The position numbers and the translations under genes are program-made. The notes under the pieces are model-generated. The model had not been told where the DNA came from and made no database searches. It worked only from the letters and a program-made list of their open reading frames with translations. A DNA stretch of 64,000 nt from Sulfurospirillum halorespirans DSM 13726 (GTDB lineage Bacteria > Campylobacterota > Campylobacteria > Campylobacterales > Sulfurospirillaceae). The stretch's first letter is position 1. The number at the start of each line of letters is the position of its first letter. The stretch spans positions 1-64,000 of the forward strand of contig NZ_CP017111.1 in assembly GCF_001723605.1 (NCBI RefSeq), in the 5' to 3' direction. Positions 20,364-27,026 of this stretch are shown here, piece by piece.

Positions 20364-20380
20364 TGGCGGGCAGAGGGGGA
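20364..20380. repeat. attL: attL core of the element
   Basis: 17-bp copy of the tRNA-Ser 3' end (T-arm strand, acceptor and CCA, in reverse complement), identical to 26939-26955. It is the distal boundary left by site-specific integration. Confidence 0.88.
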
Positions 20381-20438
20381 GACAACTCCAATTCTCGTTA
20401 TAACCAGCAACCCCTTTAAATAAGGGTTTTGAATACAT
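20381..20438 (-). pseudogene. Displaced 5' end of the integrase gene
   Basis: Reading leftward from ATG at 20438-20436, an open frame runs to attL with AAGGAA (20448-20443) ahead of it and TATAAT at 20463-20458. In the integrated state it runs through attL and stops after two codons of host DNA. If the 17-bp cores recombine, the frame passes through attP and joins the integrase body at 26938 with no stop and in the correct frame. This supplies about 19 residues before the core and an integrase of about 543 aa. The joining was worked out by hand from the sequence. Confidence 0.7.
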
Positions 20439-20457
20439 TTTGTTCCTTTTTTTTATG

Positions 20458-20463
20458 ATTATA
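20458..20463 (-). promoter_or_regulatory. Putative integrase promoter, -10 element
   Basis: Perfect TATAAT on the minus strand, 19 nt ahead of the ATG at 20438. The tandem AGTTGGACA integrase-type repeats (20474-20497) lie in its -35 region, so integrase binding could repress it. In the integrated state it points out of the element toward the Sel1 gene. Confidence 0.5.
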
Positions 20464-20473
20464 TCACAAAAAA

Positions 20474-20497
20474 AGTTGGACAAAAAGTTGGACAGTT
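20474..20497. repeat. Left arm-type repeat (tandem AGTTGGACA)
   Basis: 24-bp sequence made of AGTTGGACA twice at 12-bp spacing. It is identical and in the same orientation at 26855-26878 near the other end. In the circle the two copies flank attP at 93 and 60 bp, the layout of tyrosine-integrase arm sites. Confidence 0.65.
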
Positions 20498-20519
20498 CAA
20501 AAGTAAAATACTTATGAAC

Positions 20520-20702
20520 TTATTCACCCATATTTTTTTTAAACCATGACATCAAGGATAAGACGTTTTTATATCTTTTTGATACACATTGACCACTATA
20601 ATCAAGTAACAGATATTGACCTTCAACATAGTGCAAACAAAGATCTGACCCACATTTTTCTAAATAGTCTTCGAACAATTCTTCTTTTTCTAAATCTGAC
20701 AT
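20520..20702 (-). CDS. Small acidic protein of the mobile element, unknown
   Basis: 60 aa starting MSDLEKEELFED, acidic at the N-terminus, with two cysteines and no recognised domain. A good ribosome site, AAAGGAG on the minus strand, precedes the ATG, which supports a real gene. In the excised circle it lies directly upstream of the integrase promoter and in the same orientation. A recombination directionality factor or regulator is possible, but no helix-turn-helix is evident. Confidence 0.6.
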   Translation of the reverse strand: MSDLEKEELFEDYLEKCGSDLCLHYVEGQYLLLDYSGQCVSKRYKNVLSLMSWFKKNMGE

Positions 20703-20880
20703 TTTTTCTCCTTTTATTTAAATCATTTTTGAATACCTTTCAAGTAAAACCTTATTACAAATATATAAAAAAATGTTTTTGTAATAGAACTATAACATAA
20801 AAAAAAATTAAGTTTAAAAAAAGTCGAAAAAACTTTTTATATCACCAAAAATATTGTTTCTTCTTTTTTGTGAAACAAAA

Positions 20881-20955
20881 AACACCTTGATAATCTAACT
20901 TTTTAACGTAACGTAGTGTAGTGTCAAAAAAGTTAGGTTATCACTGTAAGGTGTT
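20881..20955. other. Candidate oriT: long imperfect inverted repeat with short direct repeats
   Basis: The arms pair in three blocks: 20881-20888 with 20948-20955 (AACACCTT), 20889-20893 with 20938-20942 (GATAA), and 20895-20904 with 20927-20936 (CTAACTTTTT). The centre 20906-20924 is a chain of short repeats (ACGTA twice, GTGTA-like twice). It lies about 65 bp ahead of the relaxase start, where MobV elements carry oriT. The gene-free stretch 20703-21019 otherwise holds only the relaxase promoter. Confidence 0.5.
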
Positions 20956-20989
20956 ATTTCTATGGACTAAATTTGTGATCTATAATTAA

Positions 20990-21017
20990 GTGTATACATT
21001 TCAAAAGGAGTATACAC
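20990..21017. promoter_or_regulatory. Inverted repeat spanning the relaxase ribosome site
   Basis: Perfect 8-bp inverted repeat GTGTATAC-N12-GTATACAC with AAAAGGAG in its loop, immediately ahead of the relaxase ATG (21020). A TATAAT at 20981-20986 lies just upstream, so the left arm is at the expected transcription start. It could be a repressor operator or an RNA hairpin controlling translation. Confidence 0.55.
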
Positions 21018-21019
21018 AT

Positions 21020-22612
21020 ATGAAATACAGTTCATTTTTATACAAGGAAATCAACTACACAAAACTTGGGAAACGCATCGCTAGAAAGACATGGAACGGC
21101 TACCAACAACTGCTTAAAAGTCTAAAACACTCACTTAGACTACAAAAAGAAGATAAAATTCATATAGATAAAGAAAAAACAAAAAACAACTTCTACTATT
21201 CTTGTTTTGAATTTTCAACACAAGATGACTTAATAGGAAAAATAGAAAAAGATATTGAAGAAAAGATACAAAAATTTGAAAATATCACTGATGAAAATGA
21301 AAGAAAAAAACAGTTTAAAGACTTTCAAAACGCTAAATACGCTATTTCTAAGAAAATACCTTTAGATATACTGGAACTGGAATTAAAAGAGAGCGATGAT
21401 GCTGGAACTGTCCTTCATAACGTTGTTTATAAACACAAAATCAAAAACTTAAAATCGAAAGACAAACGAACGTTAAAAACACTAGAACACTATATTTCTA
21501 TGTCAAAAAGCTATTTTTCTACAAAACAAAAAACACGAAAATATAACAATCAAACTCTTATGAAAGAACTCTTGTTCAAAATTCCAGAAGGGCAGGAATT
21601 GACTTTAACAAATGAGGAATGGAACGTAATTATTCATAATTTTAAAAGTCTATATTTTAAAAATTATGACCTTTATTGCTATGCAATACATGGGGATGAA
21701 GGAACGGAAGATAAAAGTCACGTTCATTTATTCCTGAGTAGTTATAACAAAGATGCGAATGATTTTGACATACAAAAAAATCTTTTTGAATTTATTTCAA
21801 AAAAACATGATTTAAGACTGGATATTAACAAAAACGATGACCATAAAATTTTTATGCAACATTTTCAAGATGATTTTTTTAGTTTTTTTAACGAGCAATT
21901 ACACTCACTAAAGAAAAAAGAACGCATAAAACAAAACGAATATCTTAATAATGAAGATATAAAAAAACGTCTTTTAATTCAAAATGATGACAAACTAACA
22001 ATAGACCAAAGACATACGAAATTAATTAATCAAAAGCTCCTAGAACGCATTCAAGAAGTGAAAGACCCTATCAAGATATTAAAATTTGAAACCAGCGAAA
22101 AATCTTCCATTTTCTCAAGCGACATCACGCAAAAAATCGAAATTGAAGCAGAAAGCAAAGACGATATAAAAAAAGTCATTAAAGCAATTAAAAACTATTC
22201 TAATCTATCAAATTTCATTCAAGATTTAGAACAAAAAAACAGAGAAAAAGATATAAAAATCTTTTCACTAAATCAAAAATTGAATGATGATTACTTCTTT
22301 TTTAACAAAAAGGAAAATGACCTATTAGAGCAAATAGATATATTAAAAAATGACAAAAATGAAGATAAAAATAAAATCAAAATGGACTTAATAAAGTCAA
22401 CCGAGACAAACAAAATTTTAAAAAGTATTCTTCAAAAAATAACAAATGTTGAGATTAATGAAATTGATCAAAACTTGGAATTTAACATTCTCGAACATAT
22501 TAAGAAAATGCAAAAAATCAAAGATCTCGAAAAAGAAAAATTAGACAATGCTCGTTTAACTAATAAGAAAAAAACAGAAGAGCATGAAGAAGTCAAAAAT
22601 AAAATAGTTTAA
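21020..22612 (+). CDS. MobV/Pre-like relaxase (mobilization protein)
   Basis: 530 aa from the ATG at 21020. The frame is open from a GTG at 20990, but AAAAGGAG at 21003-21010 fixes the later start. The N-terminal segment with HSLRLQKEDKIHIDKEKTKNN resembles motif I of Mob/Pre proteins. The segment AIHGDEGTEDKSHVHLFLS (about residue 225) has the HxDE...HxH metal-site pattern of HUH relaxases. The C-terminal 200 residues are Lys/Glu-rich coiled coil, as in other Mob proteins. It should nick the element at oriT for conjugal mobilization by a helper. A terminator follows. Confidence 0.75.
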   Translation: MKYSSFLYKEINYTKLGKRIARKTWNGYQQLLKSLKHSLRLQKEDKIHIDKEKTKNNFYYSCFEFSTQDDLIGKIEKDIEEKIQKFENITDENERKKQFKDFQNAKYAISKKIPLDILELELKESDDAGTVLHNVVYKHKIKNLKSKDKRTLKTLEHYISMSKSYFSTKQKTRKYNNQTLMKELLFKIPEGQELTLTNEEWNVIIHNFKSLYFKNYDLYCYAIHGDEGTEDKSHVHLFLSSYNKDANDFDIQKNLFEFISKKHDLRLDINKNDDHKIFMQHFQDDFFSFFNEQLHSLKKKERIKQNEYLNNEDIKKRLLIQNDDKLTIDQRHTKLINQKLLERIQEVKDPIKILKFETSEKSSIFSSDITQKIEIEAESKDDIKKVIKAIKNYSNLSNFIQDLEQKNREKDIKIFSLNQKLNDDYFFFNKKENDLLEQIDILKNDKNEDKNKIKMDLIKSTETNKILKSILQKITNVEINEIDQNLEFNILEHIKKMQKIKDLEKEKLDNARLTNKKKTEEHEEVKNKIV

Positions 22613-22634
22613 AATTTTACAATACGCCCCCAAA

Positions 22635-22654
22635 CCCCCTAAAGGGGGCTTTTT
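22635..22654 (+). terminator. Rho-independent terminator of the relaxase gene
   Basis: Stem CCCCC (22635-22639) / GGGGG (22644-22648) with loop TAAA, followed by CTTTTT (22649-22654), just after the relaxase stop. Confidence 0.85.
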
Positions 22655-23073
22655 AGAAAATTACTCTTTTTGCATTCCATTCATAGAATATAAAACCTCA
22701 TAGAACACTCAAAAACCTCAAAAAAAGACCAAAAGAAATGTTAGACAATACAAAACATCAGAACTGAAAAAATTGATATAGAAATCGCTCTCTTTTAATT
22801 CTTTTTCTTTTAGCGCGTAATTTTTCTTTTTCTTGGCTGTGAGTCTATTTACTACAATGTAATAAGCACAAACATATCTAATCAAACTTTTTACGGCTTT
22901 GTGAGAAATTTTATGCAAAGAATTTAATGCGGGGAAAGACTTTAAAACGAAGTAAGCAAGCAAAAACAAAACTTTTAAACGTTAATTCACATATGACAAA
23001 AAAGACAAACTACATAATTTTGGAGTCAAAAGTTTGCGTTCACAAAAATTCCGTACACTAATAAGTATAGTCA

Positions 23074-23106
23074 TCTTAATATATGAACGAAGTGAATATA
23101 TTAAGA
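23074..23106. repeat. 10-bp inverted repeat in the element
   Basis: Perfect arms TCTTAATATA (23074-23083) and TATATTAAGA (23097-23106) with a 13-nt loop containing GAACGAAGTG. No U-tract follows. Function is unknown. Confidence 0.6.
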
Positions 23107-23130
23107 GATTATAAGTAATTAGTTACCTCT

Positions 23131-23168
23131 TGAGTATACTCATATGTAACTAACTACATATGAGTATA
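23131..23168. repeat. Nested palindromes in the element
   Basis: A 12-bp palindrome TGAGTATACTCA (23131-23142) overlaps the left arm of a perfect 14-bp inverted repeat (arms 23135-23148 and 23155-23168, loop 6 nt). A further 7-bp pair TAGTTAC / GTAACTA (23119-23125, 23146-23152) interlocks with both. The pairings exclude each other. The GTATAC core is shared with the repeat ahead of the relaxase. Confidence 0.65.
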
Positions 23169-23258
23169 AAATAATAATATATTTTAATTTTATTGCAATA
23201 GACTAAATTTGATTAAAATTCACCAATATATTACAAAGTTGAAAATATTTAGTAAACA

Positions 23259-25118
23259 TTATCCTATAACCACACAATTTCGACCATTATGTTTTGCTTG
23301 ATAAAGTGCTCTATCAGCACGTGAAAGTAACTCTTTAACTGTATTTTCACCTTCAAATTCAGCAACACCAATACTAATAGTCATATTATTAATATCATTA
23401 AAGAGAGTATTTTCTACACAAGCTCTTAATTTTTCAGCAAGTAGAGCTGTTTTATTCTTATCTGTCTCAGGACAAATAATTAAAAACTCTTCACCGCCAT
23501 AACGTCCAACAATATCACTTTTTCGTAAATTATCAGTTAATATTTTTGCTAAAGTCTGTAATGTAGAATCACCAGTAGGATGACCATAAGTATCATTGAT
23601 ATTTTTAAAATGGTCAATATCAAGAATCATAAATGATAAAGGTTGACGATAACGTTTTGCTCTATTAAATTCACTTTCCATATATTCATCAAGTTTTCTT
23701 CGATTATAAATTCCCGTAAGTTTATCTATTTCAGATAAGCGCTCAACTTCTTTCTTAGCGGTTATATCATTACCAATAGCCATATAAGAAACAATTCTAT
23801 TATTCCCATCTTTAATAGGAAGAATATTTTGTTCCAAATAATATATATCTTCATCTTTATTAAGGTTTTTTAATTCACCTTGCCAATTTTTTCCTGCTTC
23901 AATTGTTTCCCAAAGCTCTGAATATAATTCATTCGAAGTATCAGGATGGCGGATGATATTCATTTTTTGACCTATGAGTTCTTCTTTAGAATAACCAGAT
24001 CTTTTTGCAAAAGCTGTACTTACAGATGTAATGATACTATTCGTTTTTGTCGTAGCGGTAATAACATATTTATCAATAATATCAGCAAATCTTCTTAATT
24101 CATGATTTGCTAAAAATAAAGACTTTTGCAATCTTGATGGAGCGATTGAAGCAAAAAATGCTAGAGGAATACTGACTAAAATACTCAGTAATATAATTAA
24201 AATACTTGTTTTGATATTAGATGAAAATAATGTACTCTGATAGGCAACTTTTAGTTTTAAAATCAATATAGCTTTATCTTCATTATCCAATATATCATTT
24301 AACTGAAAACTATAAAAAGTCTCACCTTTATTTTCCCCTGCAAGTATCTTTTCTGCTTCTAATGGGAATTCATCATATAATCTAATACTAGAATTTGTAT
24401 ACCGTGACCATGAATATTCATCATTTGGATGTGTAATAAAATAACCATCTTTATCAATAATAAAATGATCAAAACTTGTTGATTTTTTTAAACCACTAAT
24501 CATTTCAGATGCAAGCAAATTAACAATAACCATGCCAACAAATTTATTATCTTTTATAATAGGTTGAGCTACTCTAAATGTTGGTTTATAAGGAACTTCT
24601 ATTTTCCCATTTTCAATATTAAGATCAATACGGGAGTGCCATATTTTTGCTTCTTTCATATGACTTACAATTTGAAAATAATCTCTTTGACTTTTATCTT
24701 GTAAATTTGATTCTTCAACTATAAAAGGCTTGTCATATTTATTTTTTCTATCAACTCGAACTATCTCTTTTCCCTCTGCACTAATAAATCGAGCTTGCAT
24801 AATAAAATTATTTGACATAGAAATTGCATAAAAAACATTCGTTAAATTATTTCTTTTTTGCTTATCAGGCGATGTAATATATTCTTCCAATGAAGTATTA
24901 GTAGACAATGCTTTAACTATTTCATCAAATTTTTCGATATCTGGTTTTAAATAATCAAATTTTTTTATTAATCCAACTTCTTGTGAAGCTTTATCAATAT
25001 TTTTTTTAATATCAATGAGATTCATGTTATAACCAACAAAAGAACCAAAAAATGCAACCAAAATACCAAAGATTACAAAATATGTAAAAAACATGAGCTT
25101 AAAATTTTTATTTGTCAT
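23259..25118 (-). CDS. Membrane dCache-PAS-GGDEF diguanylate cyclase
   Basis: 619 aa. A membrane helix at about 10-30 and another near 300-320 enclose a periplasmic double-Cache sensor domain. A PAS domain (about 345-440, with SGYSKEELIGQKMN and a PAC tail) and a GGDEF domain (about 450-615) follow. The catalytic motif GRYGGEEF is intact (about 538-542), and an RKSD inhibitory site sits five residues ahead of it, so it should make c-di-GMP under feedback control. It lies between attL and attR and is therefore element cargo. The input signal is unknown. Confidence 0.9.
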   Translation of the reverse strand: MTNKNFKLMFFTYFVIFGILVAFFGSFVGYNMNLIDIKKNIDKASQEVGLIKKFDYLKPDIEKFDEIVKALSTNTSLEEYITSPDKQKRNNLTNVFYAISMSNNFIMQARFISAEGKEIVRVDRKNKYDKPFIVEESNLQDKSQRDYFQIVSHMKEAKIWHSRIDLNIENGKIEVPYKPTFRVAQPIIKDNKFVGMVIVNLLASEMISGLKKSTSFDHFIIDKDGYFITHPNDEYSWSRYTNSSIRLYDEFPLEAEKILAGENKGETFYSFQLNDILDNEDKAILILKLKVAYQSTLFSSNIKTSILIILLSILVSIPLAFFASIAPSRLQKSLFLANHELRRFADIIDKYVITATTKTNSIITSVSTAFAKRSGYSKEELIGQKMNIIRHPDTSNELYSELWETIEAGKNWQGELKNLNKDEDIYYLEQNILPIKDGNNRIVSYMAIGNDITAKKEVERLSEIDKLTGIYNRRKLDEYMESEFNRAKRYRQPLSFMILDIDHFKNINDTYGHPTGDSTLQTLAKILTDNLRKSDIVGRYGGEEFLIICPETDKNKTALLAEKLRACVENTLFNDINNMTISIGVAEFEGENTVKELLSRADRALYQAKHNGRNCVVIG

Positions 25119-25381
25119 AAGAAAACCTAGTTTTTTGAATTATATTTTTAATAATATCTAGTATTACTATAATCCTAAATTAATACATTAAAATTATGTG
25201 TATAACCTTTACTTGTCAAACGAAGTGTAGTTTTAGTCACTATTTAATCCAATTAAAGGCTAGAATACGGACCTTGATGTAAAAATATCTGCAGAACTCT
25301 GCTATTCGTCTGATAATAATGATTTGATAGTTATTTTTTTCAACTTTTTCTCCTATTTTCAATGCTTATTTCATATTTTAA

Positions 25382-26938
25382 CTAAAATATAAAAGTTATT
25401 TGATTTATACAATCTCTTAATTTTTCTATATTTATTTTATTTTTATTATAAACTGTATGTGTTACATCATTTTTAAAACTGTGTCCCATAAGATACTTTT
25501 TAGTTTTTTCGTCGGAATTTGTGTTTAATTCAATTTCTTGTGAAAAGTTTTTTCTAAAACTGTGAAAACTTTTATCTTTATCATTTACTATTTTTTTTAG
25601 TCTATTGTTTACTCTTTTACCAGCATTTTTAACTTCATTTTTTTTCTCATAATCAAAAAATAGATATTTATATTTACGGTGTTTTTTTTGATATTCAATT
25701 AAATTTTGTATGTTTTTATGAACTGGAATTATTCTTTGATGTTTTTTATTAGTAGTATCATCTAACGTTGTAACATGTATTAAATTATCGTGTATGTCTT
25801 CTTTTTTAACACTTAAAACTTCTTCTAATCTCAATCCTGTATAAATCGTAAATTTACACATATTTAAATAAACTTTTTCCATTTTACTGTTAAAAATTTT
25901 GTCTATATCTTCTTGTGAATACTCTATTTTTTCACTCTCTTCTTCTTTTAAAGATTTTATATTTTTGAGTGGGTTTTCTGTCAATACCTCTTCGTAAATT
26001 AAGTAATCAAAAAATTTACTGTAATTACTCATATGATTATTTATTGTTTTTGTATTTAATACTTCATAGTTTTCTATATCTTTTAATTTTAATACTTCCT
26101 CAAAATCTTTTTTATAGTATTTCTCGTATTTGAAAAAATTCGCTGGTAATTCCTGAAATTTCTTTTGAATTTCTTTAAAAAAAGAAAAATTAAAAACAGT
26201 ATTTTCTTTGATAAAATACTTTAAATATCGAAAAGAAGAATTACTCGTTCTTATTGAATCGTTTGAAACTTTGACAAAATTCTTTCTATAATCTATATAC
26301 TCACTATAATATCTATCAAGATTAATTAGAACATTATTCTTTATTTTATTAATTTCTTCATCAATTTTTGGAGAATTATCTAGTTTTTTTTCTAAAATTT
26401 TTACAATTTCAAAAATCTCATTTTCTTTTCTTTTTTCTAACTCTTCTATTCTCTTGTCGTTCTCGATTTCATCTTTCCATCGCCATTCATAATACTCTTG
26501 TTCTTCTTTTTTTGTGGCAAAAGTCATAGTTTCTTTTAGTATTCCTCTCTGACTTTTTGTTAACCCAGATTCGTAAAATTCTTCATCAAATTCGCCATTT
26601 TCTTCGTGAATTTTATTAATTTTTTCTTGAATATCTTCTTGAATTTTTTGTAGATATTCAATTGAATTTTTATCTATTTTTTTCGTCATTTTTTCATCTT
26701 TTTTCATTTCTATTTTCTCTAAAATTTTATTTTTAAGATTTTTACAATACTCAAAATCACCTGATTTTAAAGATATTTTAAAAGATTTATTATTAAATTT
26801 TTTAGAAAAGTAGTAAATGTTCTTTCTTTTATATAAGTATTTTTCTTTTTTTGAAGTTGGACAAAAAGTTGGACAGTTTTGTTTTTGTAAGTTTTTAAAT
26901 TGTTCAAATGTCGAATTTAAGGTAGTTTGTGAAGTTTC
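25382..26938 (-). CDS. Tyrosine recombinase (integrase) of the element, 5' end separated by integration
   Basis: The catalytic domain has the R-H-R-H-Y set: TGLRLEEVL, HSFRKNF, LMGHSF and TVYNKN. An arm-binding segment (LYKRKNIYYF...FKISLKSGDFEY) and a long coiled-coil region come first. Between the tRNA gene (ends 26939) and the first in-frame ATG at 26707 there is no ATG, GTG or TTG, yet the arm-binding region lies there. The frame runs on through the tRNA to an ATG at 27028 with no ribosome site. The natural start is probably the one at the left end of the element (20438), joined only after excision. Confidence 0.85.
   Translation of the reverse strand, partial: ETSQTTLNSTFEQFKNLQKQNCPTFCPTSKKEKYLYKRKNIYYFSKKFNNKSFKISLKSGDFEYCKNLKNKILEKIEMKKDEKMTKKIDKNSIEYLQKIQEDIQEKINKIHEENGEFDEEFYESGLTKSQRGILKETMTFATKKEEQEYYEWRWKDEIENDKRIEELEKRKENEIFEIVKILEKKLDNSPKIDEEINKIKNNVLINLDRYYSEYIDYRKNFVKVSNDSIRTSNSSFRYLKYFIKENTVFNFSFFKEIQKKFQELPANFFKYEKYYKKDFEEVLKLKDIENYEVLNTKTINNHMSNYSKFFDYLIYEEVLTENPLKNIKSLKEEESEKIEYSQEDIDKIFNSKMEKVYLNMCKFTIYTGLRLEEVLSVKKEDIHDNLIHVTTLDDTTNKKHQRIIPVHKNIQNLIEYQKKHRKYKYLFFDYEKKNEVKNAGKRVNNRLKKIVNDKDKSFHSFRKNFSQEIELNTNSDEKTKKYLMGHSFKNDVTHTVYNKNKINIEKLRDCINQITFIF
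26855..26878. repeat. Right arm-type repeat (tandem AGTTGGACA)
   Basis: Identical in sequence and orientation to 20474-20497. Here it lies inside the integrase coding frame, whereas the left copy is non-coding, so conservation is for the DNA rather than the protein. Confidence 0.65.
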
Positions 26939-26955
26939 TGGCGGGCAGAGGGGGA
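26939..26955. repeat. attR: attR core of the element
   Basis: 17-bp repeat identical to 20364-20380, forming the 3' end of the tRNA-Ser gene. Integration leaves the tRNA intact. Confidence 0.88.
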
Positions 26956-27026
26956 TTCGAACCCCCGGTGAGTTGCCCCACGGCCGCGTTCCAGGCGACT
27001 GGATTAAACCACTCTCCCATCTGCCC
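26939..27026 (-). tRNA. tRNA-Ser (anticodon GGA)
   Basis: 88 nt with encoded CCA. The acceptor stem is GGGCAGA / TCTGCCC with discriminator G. The anticodon stem GTCGC / GCGGC carries loop CTGGAAC, giving anticodon GGA (Ser, UCC/UCU codons). A long variable arm of the class II type is followed by T-arm GGGGG-TTCGAAT-CCCCC. A TTATAC -10-like element lies upstream on the minus strand. It serves as the attachment site of the mobile element. Confidence 0.95.

Follow-up and report, generated by a model that had tools for sequence, protein, structure and literature searches.

An integrative element at tRNA-Ser(GGA)

The window analysed here, positions 1 to 64,000 of Sulfurospirillum halorespirans DSM 13726 contig NZ_CP017111.1, carries an integrative element next to tRNA-Ser(GGA) (26939..27026, minus strand, called by ARAGORN). 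The 3′ end of this target gene is the core, a 17-bp exact repeat, tggcgggcagaggggga, which stands on the minus strand both at the tRNA side (26939..26955) and at the far end (20364..20380), and the interval between the two copies gives an element of 6,575 bp. Removal of one copy together with the interior yields the empty site of five congeners (G012, G013, G014, G016 and G023), found uninterrupted when the two chromosomal flanks were joined and the genus was searched. In further genomes, G008 and G020 among them, the same search showed the tRNA-Ser-GGA site filled by different insertions. This confirms the boundaries and marks the site as an insertion hotspot. A direct repeat of the tRNA 3′ end combined with an empty target in relatives is the pattern of tRNA-targeted integrative elements, and the span 20381-26938 given in an earlier note on this DNA is the element interior between the core copies, correct to within the core. 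Decayed family members also occur, as two related 4.6-5.2 kb insertions at tRNA-Ser-GGA: the integrase leader has decayed in L138 (G010), and in L135 (G020) the tRNA is not followed by any long open frame.

Read along the minus strand, the order is tRNA-Ser(GGA), integrase body, diguanylate cyclase, a 540-aa protein on the plus strand, a 60-aa ORF and the far end. The cargo gene encodes a sensor-PAS-GGDEF diguanylate cyclase (23259..25118, minus strand; Pfam), a copy of which, 78% identical, adjoins the integrase gene of the G007 element. The 540-aa HUH-like protein (20990..22612, plus strand) contains an HVHLF motif and has relatives in the G009, G011, G015 and G007 elements; no confident family or solved-structure match was obtained for it, and going by the motif it may be a new HUH protein with a role in replication or mobilisation. 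The 60-aa ORF beside the far end (20520..20702, minus strand) is conserved in two relatives (tblastn matches in G011 and L044) and gave no family match; our guess would be a directionality factor.

The integrase body, int(C) (25382..26938, minus strand), comprises leader, arm-binding, core-binding and catalytic domains, on the evidence of PF00589 (E=7.7e-10), the start scan and AlphaFold/Foldseek. It is a lambda-type tyrosine integrase, with PF00589 above the cut-off, a match to phrog_1 (E=8.8e-30) and an AlphaFold model that matches lambda Int (Foldseek E=6.9e-8), and the R, H, R, H, Y columns are invariant. In the model, residues 35-56 form a three-stranded arm-binding sheet, followed by helices and the catalytic domain, while the leader (residues 1-25) has pLDDT below 50 and is probably disordered. 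Hence, the cut described below would fall where sequence change is tolerated.

An integrase frame divided between the element ends

The body has no start codon of its own ahead of the arm-binding domain. Across the 77 codons scanned between the core and ATG 26707, the int frame contains no ATG, GTG or TTG, in agreement with the earlier claim that a canonical start is missing between the tRNA and the arm-binding region. The first standard start, an in-frame ATG at codon 78 (26705..26707, minus strand), has no Shine-Dalgarno sequence and lies beyond the arm-binding sheet of the model, so a protein begun there would have no arm-binding domain. After integration, the frame can be followed upstream across the tRNA as far as an ATG, giving 548 aa, and no ribosome site precedes the arm-binding domain of the body; the fusion through tRNA-Ser described in the earlier note is therefore real.

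At the opposite end, the minus strand carries what the body lacks, and the −10, ribosome site and ATG were all found where they had been placed. The extended −10 TGATATAAT of a putative circle promoter (20458..20466) is followed by the Shine-Dalgarno sequence AAGGA (20444..20448), 5 nt upstream of the far ATG (20436..20438), the putative int start. The promoter was missed by a sigma-70 two-hexamer scan because its −35 is poor; G021 and G017a have TGTTATAAT at the position of the extended −10. From the far ATG, int(N) (20381..20438, minus strand) contributes 58 nt ahead of the core, start codon included, which amounts to 19 codons plus 1 nt, and its frame stays open through the core. The far-side peptide including the core is MYSKPLFKGVAGYNENWSCLPLCPP, and a related peptide stands at the equivalent place in G033, G021 and G017a. 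When the element ends are joined across the core, a stop-free frame of 543 codons results, reading NWSCLPLCPPETSQ across the junction; the single joined frame and the location of the attP core within the int 5′ coding region, both proposed earlier, hold. We infer that the far promoter is active in the circle, that int is translated from the far ATG, and that Int is lost after integration.

The first codons of the joined frame also contain a conserved inverted repeat, CCC..AT-rich..GGG (20405-20435), shared by the window and the far ends of G033, G021 and G017a. Its arms vary on both sides, for example AACCC/GGGTT versus AATCCC/GGGATT. A directionality-factor site or an mRNA hairpin are possible roles.

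In-register far-end starts in 12 elements

A genuine int start at the far ATG requires that relatives, too, carry a far-end start in the register of their own integrase. Relatives were gathered by protein and profile searches and their flanks then retrieved, which gave 11 further elements of 4.3 to 21 kb with both ends readable. Six lie at tRNA-Ser-GGA (G033, G021, G017a, G007, G008 and G015), and the others use Ser-GCT (G017b), Ser-TGA (G009), Asn (G092), Arg (G059) and tmRNA (G078). Their integrases are 21-53% identical to that of the window. The 12 elements are related and are not independent trials; between them they use six target genes, and their integrases belong to several divergent lineages, while the comparison set of one genome per species allows few close comparisons.

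In all 12 elements, window included, a far-end ATG shares the register of the integrase, and the frame from it is free of stops up to the core end. The ATG lies 45-123 nt upstream of the end of the far core, and the int(N) peptide has 15-41 codons including the core, which is 14-23 bp long. The integrase register relative to the end of the RNA gene is 0, 1 or 2 depending on the element, and the far end matches each time, for which chance would give about 2e-6 assuming free registers and independent elements. Taking four or more bases of AAGGAGG ahead of the ATG as a Shine-Dalgarno match, this signal with an ATG was present in 11/12 in-register frames versus 1/24 off-register frames (Fisher P = 2e-7). 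The split layout in the window is not due to chance, since the same layout recurs in 11 other elements. The earlier note had pointed to related Campylobacterota elements as the place to look for an attP-spanning frame; such a frame is present in 12/12, in three registers, with a ribosome site in 11/12.

These data bear on the idea that the far-end frame encodes a separate short peptide, a leader or directionality factor, which is in register with the core by accident. Once the element is integrated, the far frame does form a short ORF whose start signals are good, and far peptides are conserved within types. Nevertheless, accidental register is hard to reconcile with agreement in 12/12 elements across three different registers, and it leaves the int body with no other start, making this idea extremely improbable.

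The N-terminal peptides fall into types. Type A peptides are alike (MYSKPLFKGVAGYNENWS, MSIKPINKGFCGYNKAWS, MLANPPIKGFCGYNKFWQ and MLLESLKIGICGYSKEWQ; pattern KGfcGYnk.W), as are those of type B (MIQSLSAKNVEALESRIIGLLRNF, MTPSLSAKSVEALESRILGTLREF and MIQKFGAKELEALIYGVLEKF; pattern MIQ.LSAK..EALE..Il..Lr.F), which occur at three tRNA targets, Ser-GGA, Ser-GCT and Asn. For a profile of the joined type-B protein, the match to full-length chromosomal copies does not begin until about position 26, as expected if the first part always lies elsewhere. Substitutions in the far segment are only suggestive of coding in the best pair, G008/G017b (pS 0.43, pN 0.18), with other pairs mixed and the segment too short to decide; its conservation may partly be due to DNA sites. 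Moreover, L009 (G021) is an apparent chimera of a type-A arm-binding domain and a type-B-like catalytic domain, which hints that integrases may exchange an N-terminal module made up of arm sites and arm-binding domain.

The core is flanked by repeats that resemble Int arm sites. In the window, the 25-bp tandem AACTGTCCAACTTTTTGTCCAACTT of the far (P) arm (20473..20497, minus strand) is matched exactly in the near (P′) arm (26854..26878, minus strand), where it reads NCPTFCPT in the int frame; a 25-bp match was not reached by any of 300 shuffles. In 10/12 elements the far side (roughly −145 to −70 relative to the core) and the near side (roughly +45 to +85) have words of 12 or more bases in common. 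These words are GTCCAAC tandems in type A elements, TATGATAC in those of type B and TTTACAACTT in G009. The near repeats are read as CPTFCPT in some elements and as CPTSVQQ in others; therefore, it is the DNA and not the peptide that is kept. Overlap of the far arm set with the −35 region of the circle promoter raises the possibility of autorepression by Int.

Another explanation is translation from the internal ATG 26707 in both states, which would make the joined frame incidental and give an Int without the arm-binding domain. That ATG is the first standard start after the tRNA in the chromosomal frame, and AGGAG precedes an internal start in a few type-B relatives (G007, G015), where it probably reflects Glu-Glu codons that resemble AGGAG. 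We also considered a conserved internal start giving a short Int as a general rule and rejected it, having seen it in some type-B members only. ATG 26707 itself lacks a Shine-Dalgarno sequence, the conserved arm-binding sheet would be lost although the arm repeats are kept, and the in-register far start in 12/12 elements would be left unexplained. Internal initiation is thus very unlikely as a substitute for the far start.

Broken integrated int genes are frequent (truncated or decayed in G017a, G015, G092, G029, G010 and G020), as expected if int is not needed after insertion. Within the same order, the integrase of the G059b element is conventional: it has an ATG of its own, and stops interrupt the joined frame. 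In a tandem remnant of G017 the far end is open through the inner core into another integrase leader, and in G078, G059 and G092 an ATG without Shine-Dalgarno sequence stands shortly after the RNA gene. In L054/G230, int has no in-frame start and is preceded by element-like DNA together with part of a tRNA-Val sequence, which may make it a counterexample or else a tandem remnant; L054 was also considered as a possible attP form and dropped, having a stop in frame just before the core. In this region (L054:5200-13070), the integrase is followed by a cluster that resembles Tn7-type transposition genes. The far ends of G317, G001, G248, L051 and L055 were searched and not found, often because of contig ends. 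Phage and plasmid records and the IMG/VR viral collection yielded no intact copy or circle, and the 7.3-kb contig L047, considered as a possible circle, has int interrupted by unrelated sequence.

Integration as a putative switch, and known systems

The reading we prefer, with a probability of roughly 0.86, is that int spans its own attP, is whole in the circle and is split by integration, whereupon Int production should stop by itself. According to this model, the circle would carry, in order, the P arm over the promoter, the Shine-Dalgarno sequence, the ATG, about 20 codons and the tRNA-derived core, followed by about 30 leader codons holding the P′ arm and finally the domains for arm binding, core binding and catalysis. 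Full-length Int made from this whole gene would catalyse recombination between the core and the tRNA-Ser 3′ end. Integration would cut the gene at the core, moving promoter, ribosome site and start to the far end, from where they would read out into the chromosome, and the body would remain behind the tRNA without a ribosome site or start ahead of its arm-binding domain. The sequence strongly implies that integration shuts Int off. Int synthesis would then be self-terminating and the integrated state favoured, and excision would depend on Int supplied in trans from another copy, or on a little leaky or truncated Int.

The switch might instead act on the promoter only, as in ICEclc and ICEKp1, with tRNA readthrough and a non-standard start giving full-length Int in the integrated state. 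Readthrough from the tRNA into int has been demonstrated for ICEKp1 (PMC13023037), and the int frame of our element is open through the tRNA. We regard this as unlikely, given that the start codon itself is relocated in the window element and that 0/12 elements have a Shine-Dalgarno sequence with a start codon between the core and the arm-binding domain.

For the group as a whole, the balance tips slightly towards independently evolved 'suicidal' integrases in Campylobacterota, whose gene would overlap the whole of the attachment site and be expressed only in the circle, with integrated elements locked in until Int is supplied in trans by a related element or by a chimeric gene remade in a tandem copy. 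A clade-wide bacterial int that splits itself would mean that a trick held to be archaeal arose more than once. It would also offer a simple integration switch, one-way by default, in culturable bacteria, in which the persistence of self-disabled elements becomes testable. In addition, gene callers will miss or truncate such integrases because the true protein is not readable from the integrated genome.

A 2021 review restricted recombinases that disrupt their own gene to archaea (PMC8371274), and the Islander authors allow integrases extending across attP, citing Mx8 and SSV (PMC4383910). The open-access literature searched yielded no description of a bacterial integrase whose start lies across attP; subscription papers were mostly outside this search, and absence is unproven. 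There is a close likeness to SSV-type elements (type I, 'suicidal': SSV1, pTN3, pT26-2), in which attP also lies in int, integration splits the gene into int(N) and a catalytic int(C), the target is a tRNA, and Int supplied in trans is a route to excision (PMC8371274). Those elements are archaeal, belong to another integrase family and have att sites of 40-50 bp (PMC8371274), whereas the Campylobacterota cores have 14-23 bp. Phage_integr_3 (PF16795), the mark of the SSV family (PMC8371274), was absent from the Pfam scan of the integrase, which gave PF00589 only; this and the short core place it outside the SSV family. The Campylobacterota cut also differs in falling in a short, apparently disordered leader ahead of the arm-binding domain, so that int(N) is reduced to the promoter, the start and 15-41 codons, those of the core among them. 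At the sequence level, the data nevertheless support an integrase that works like the SSV type, with attP inside the int coding sequence.

Among bacterial systems, myxophage Mx8 (and Mx9) has a tyrosine integrase with attP inside int and a protein changed by integration. In Mx8, attP lies at the 3′ end of int and the new C-terminus alters activity without abolishing it (PMC6070905), whereas attP lies at the 5′ end in the window element. ICEclc (Pcirc) and ICEKp1 also have int beside a tRNA and, when excised, rely on a promoter at the opposite end for its transcription; their int coding sequence stays whole and a tRNA promoter drives it when integrated (PMC13023037), whereas the start codon and ribosome site are also relocated in the Campylobacterota elements. 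In mycobacteriophage BPs an attP within a coding sequence likewise serves as a switch, but there the split gene is the repressor, which is truncated at its C-terminus (PMC4557955).
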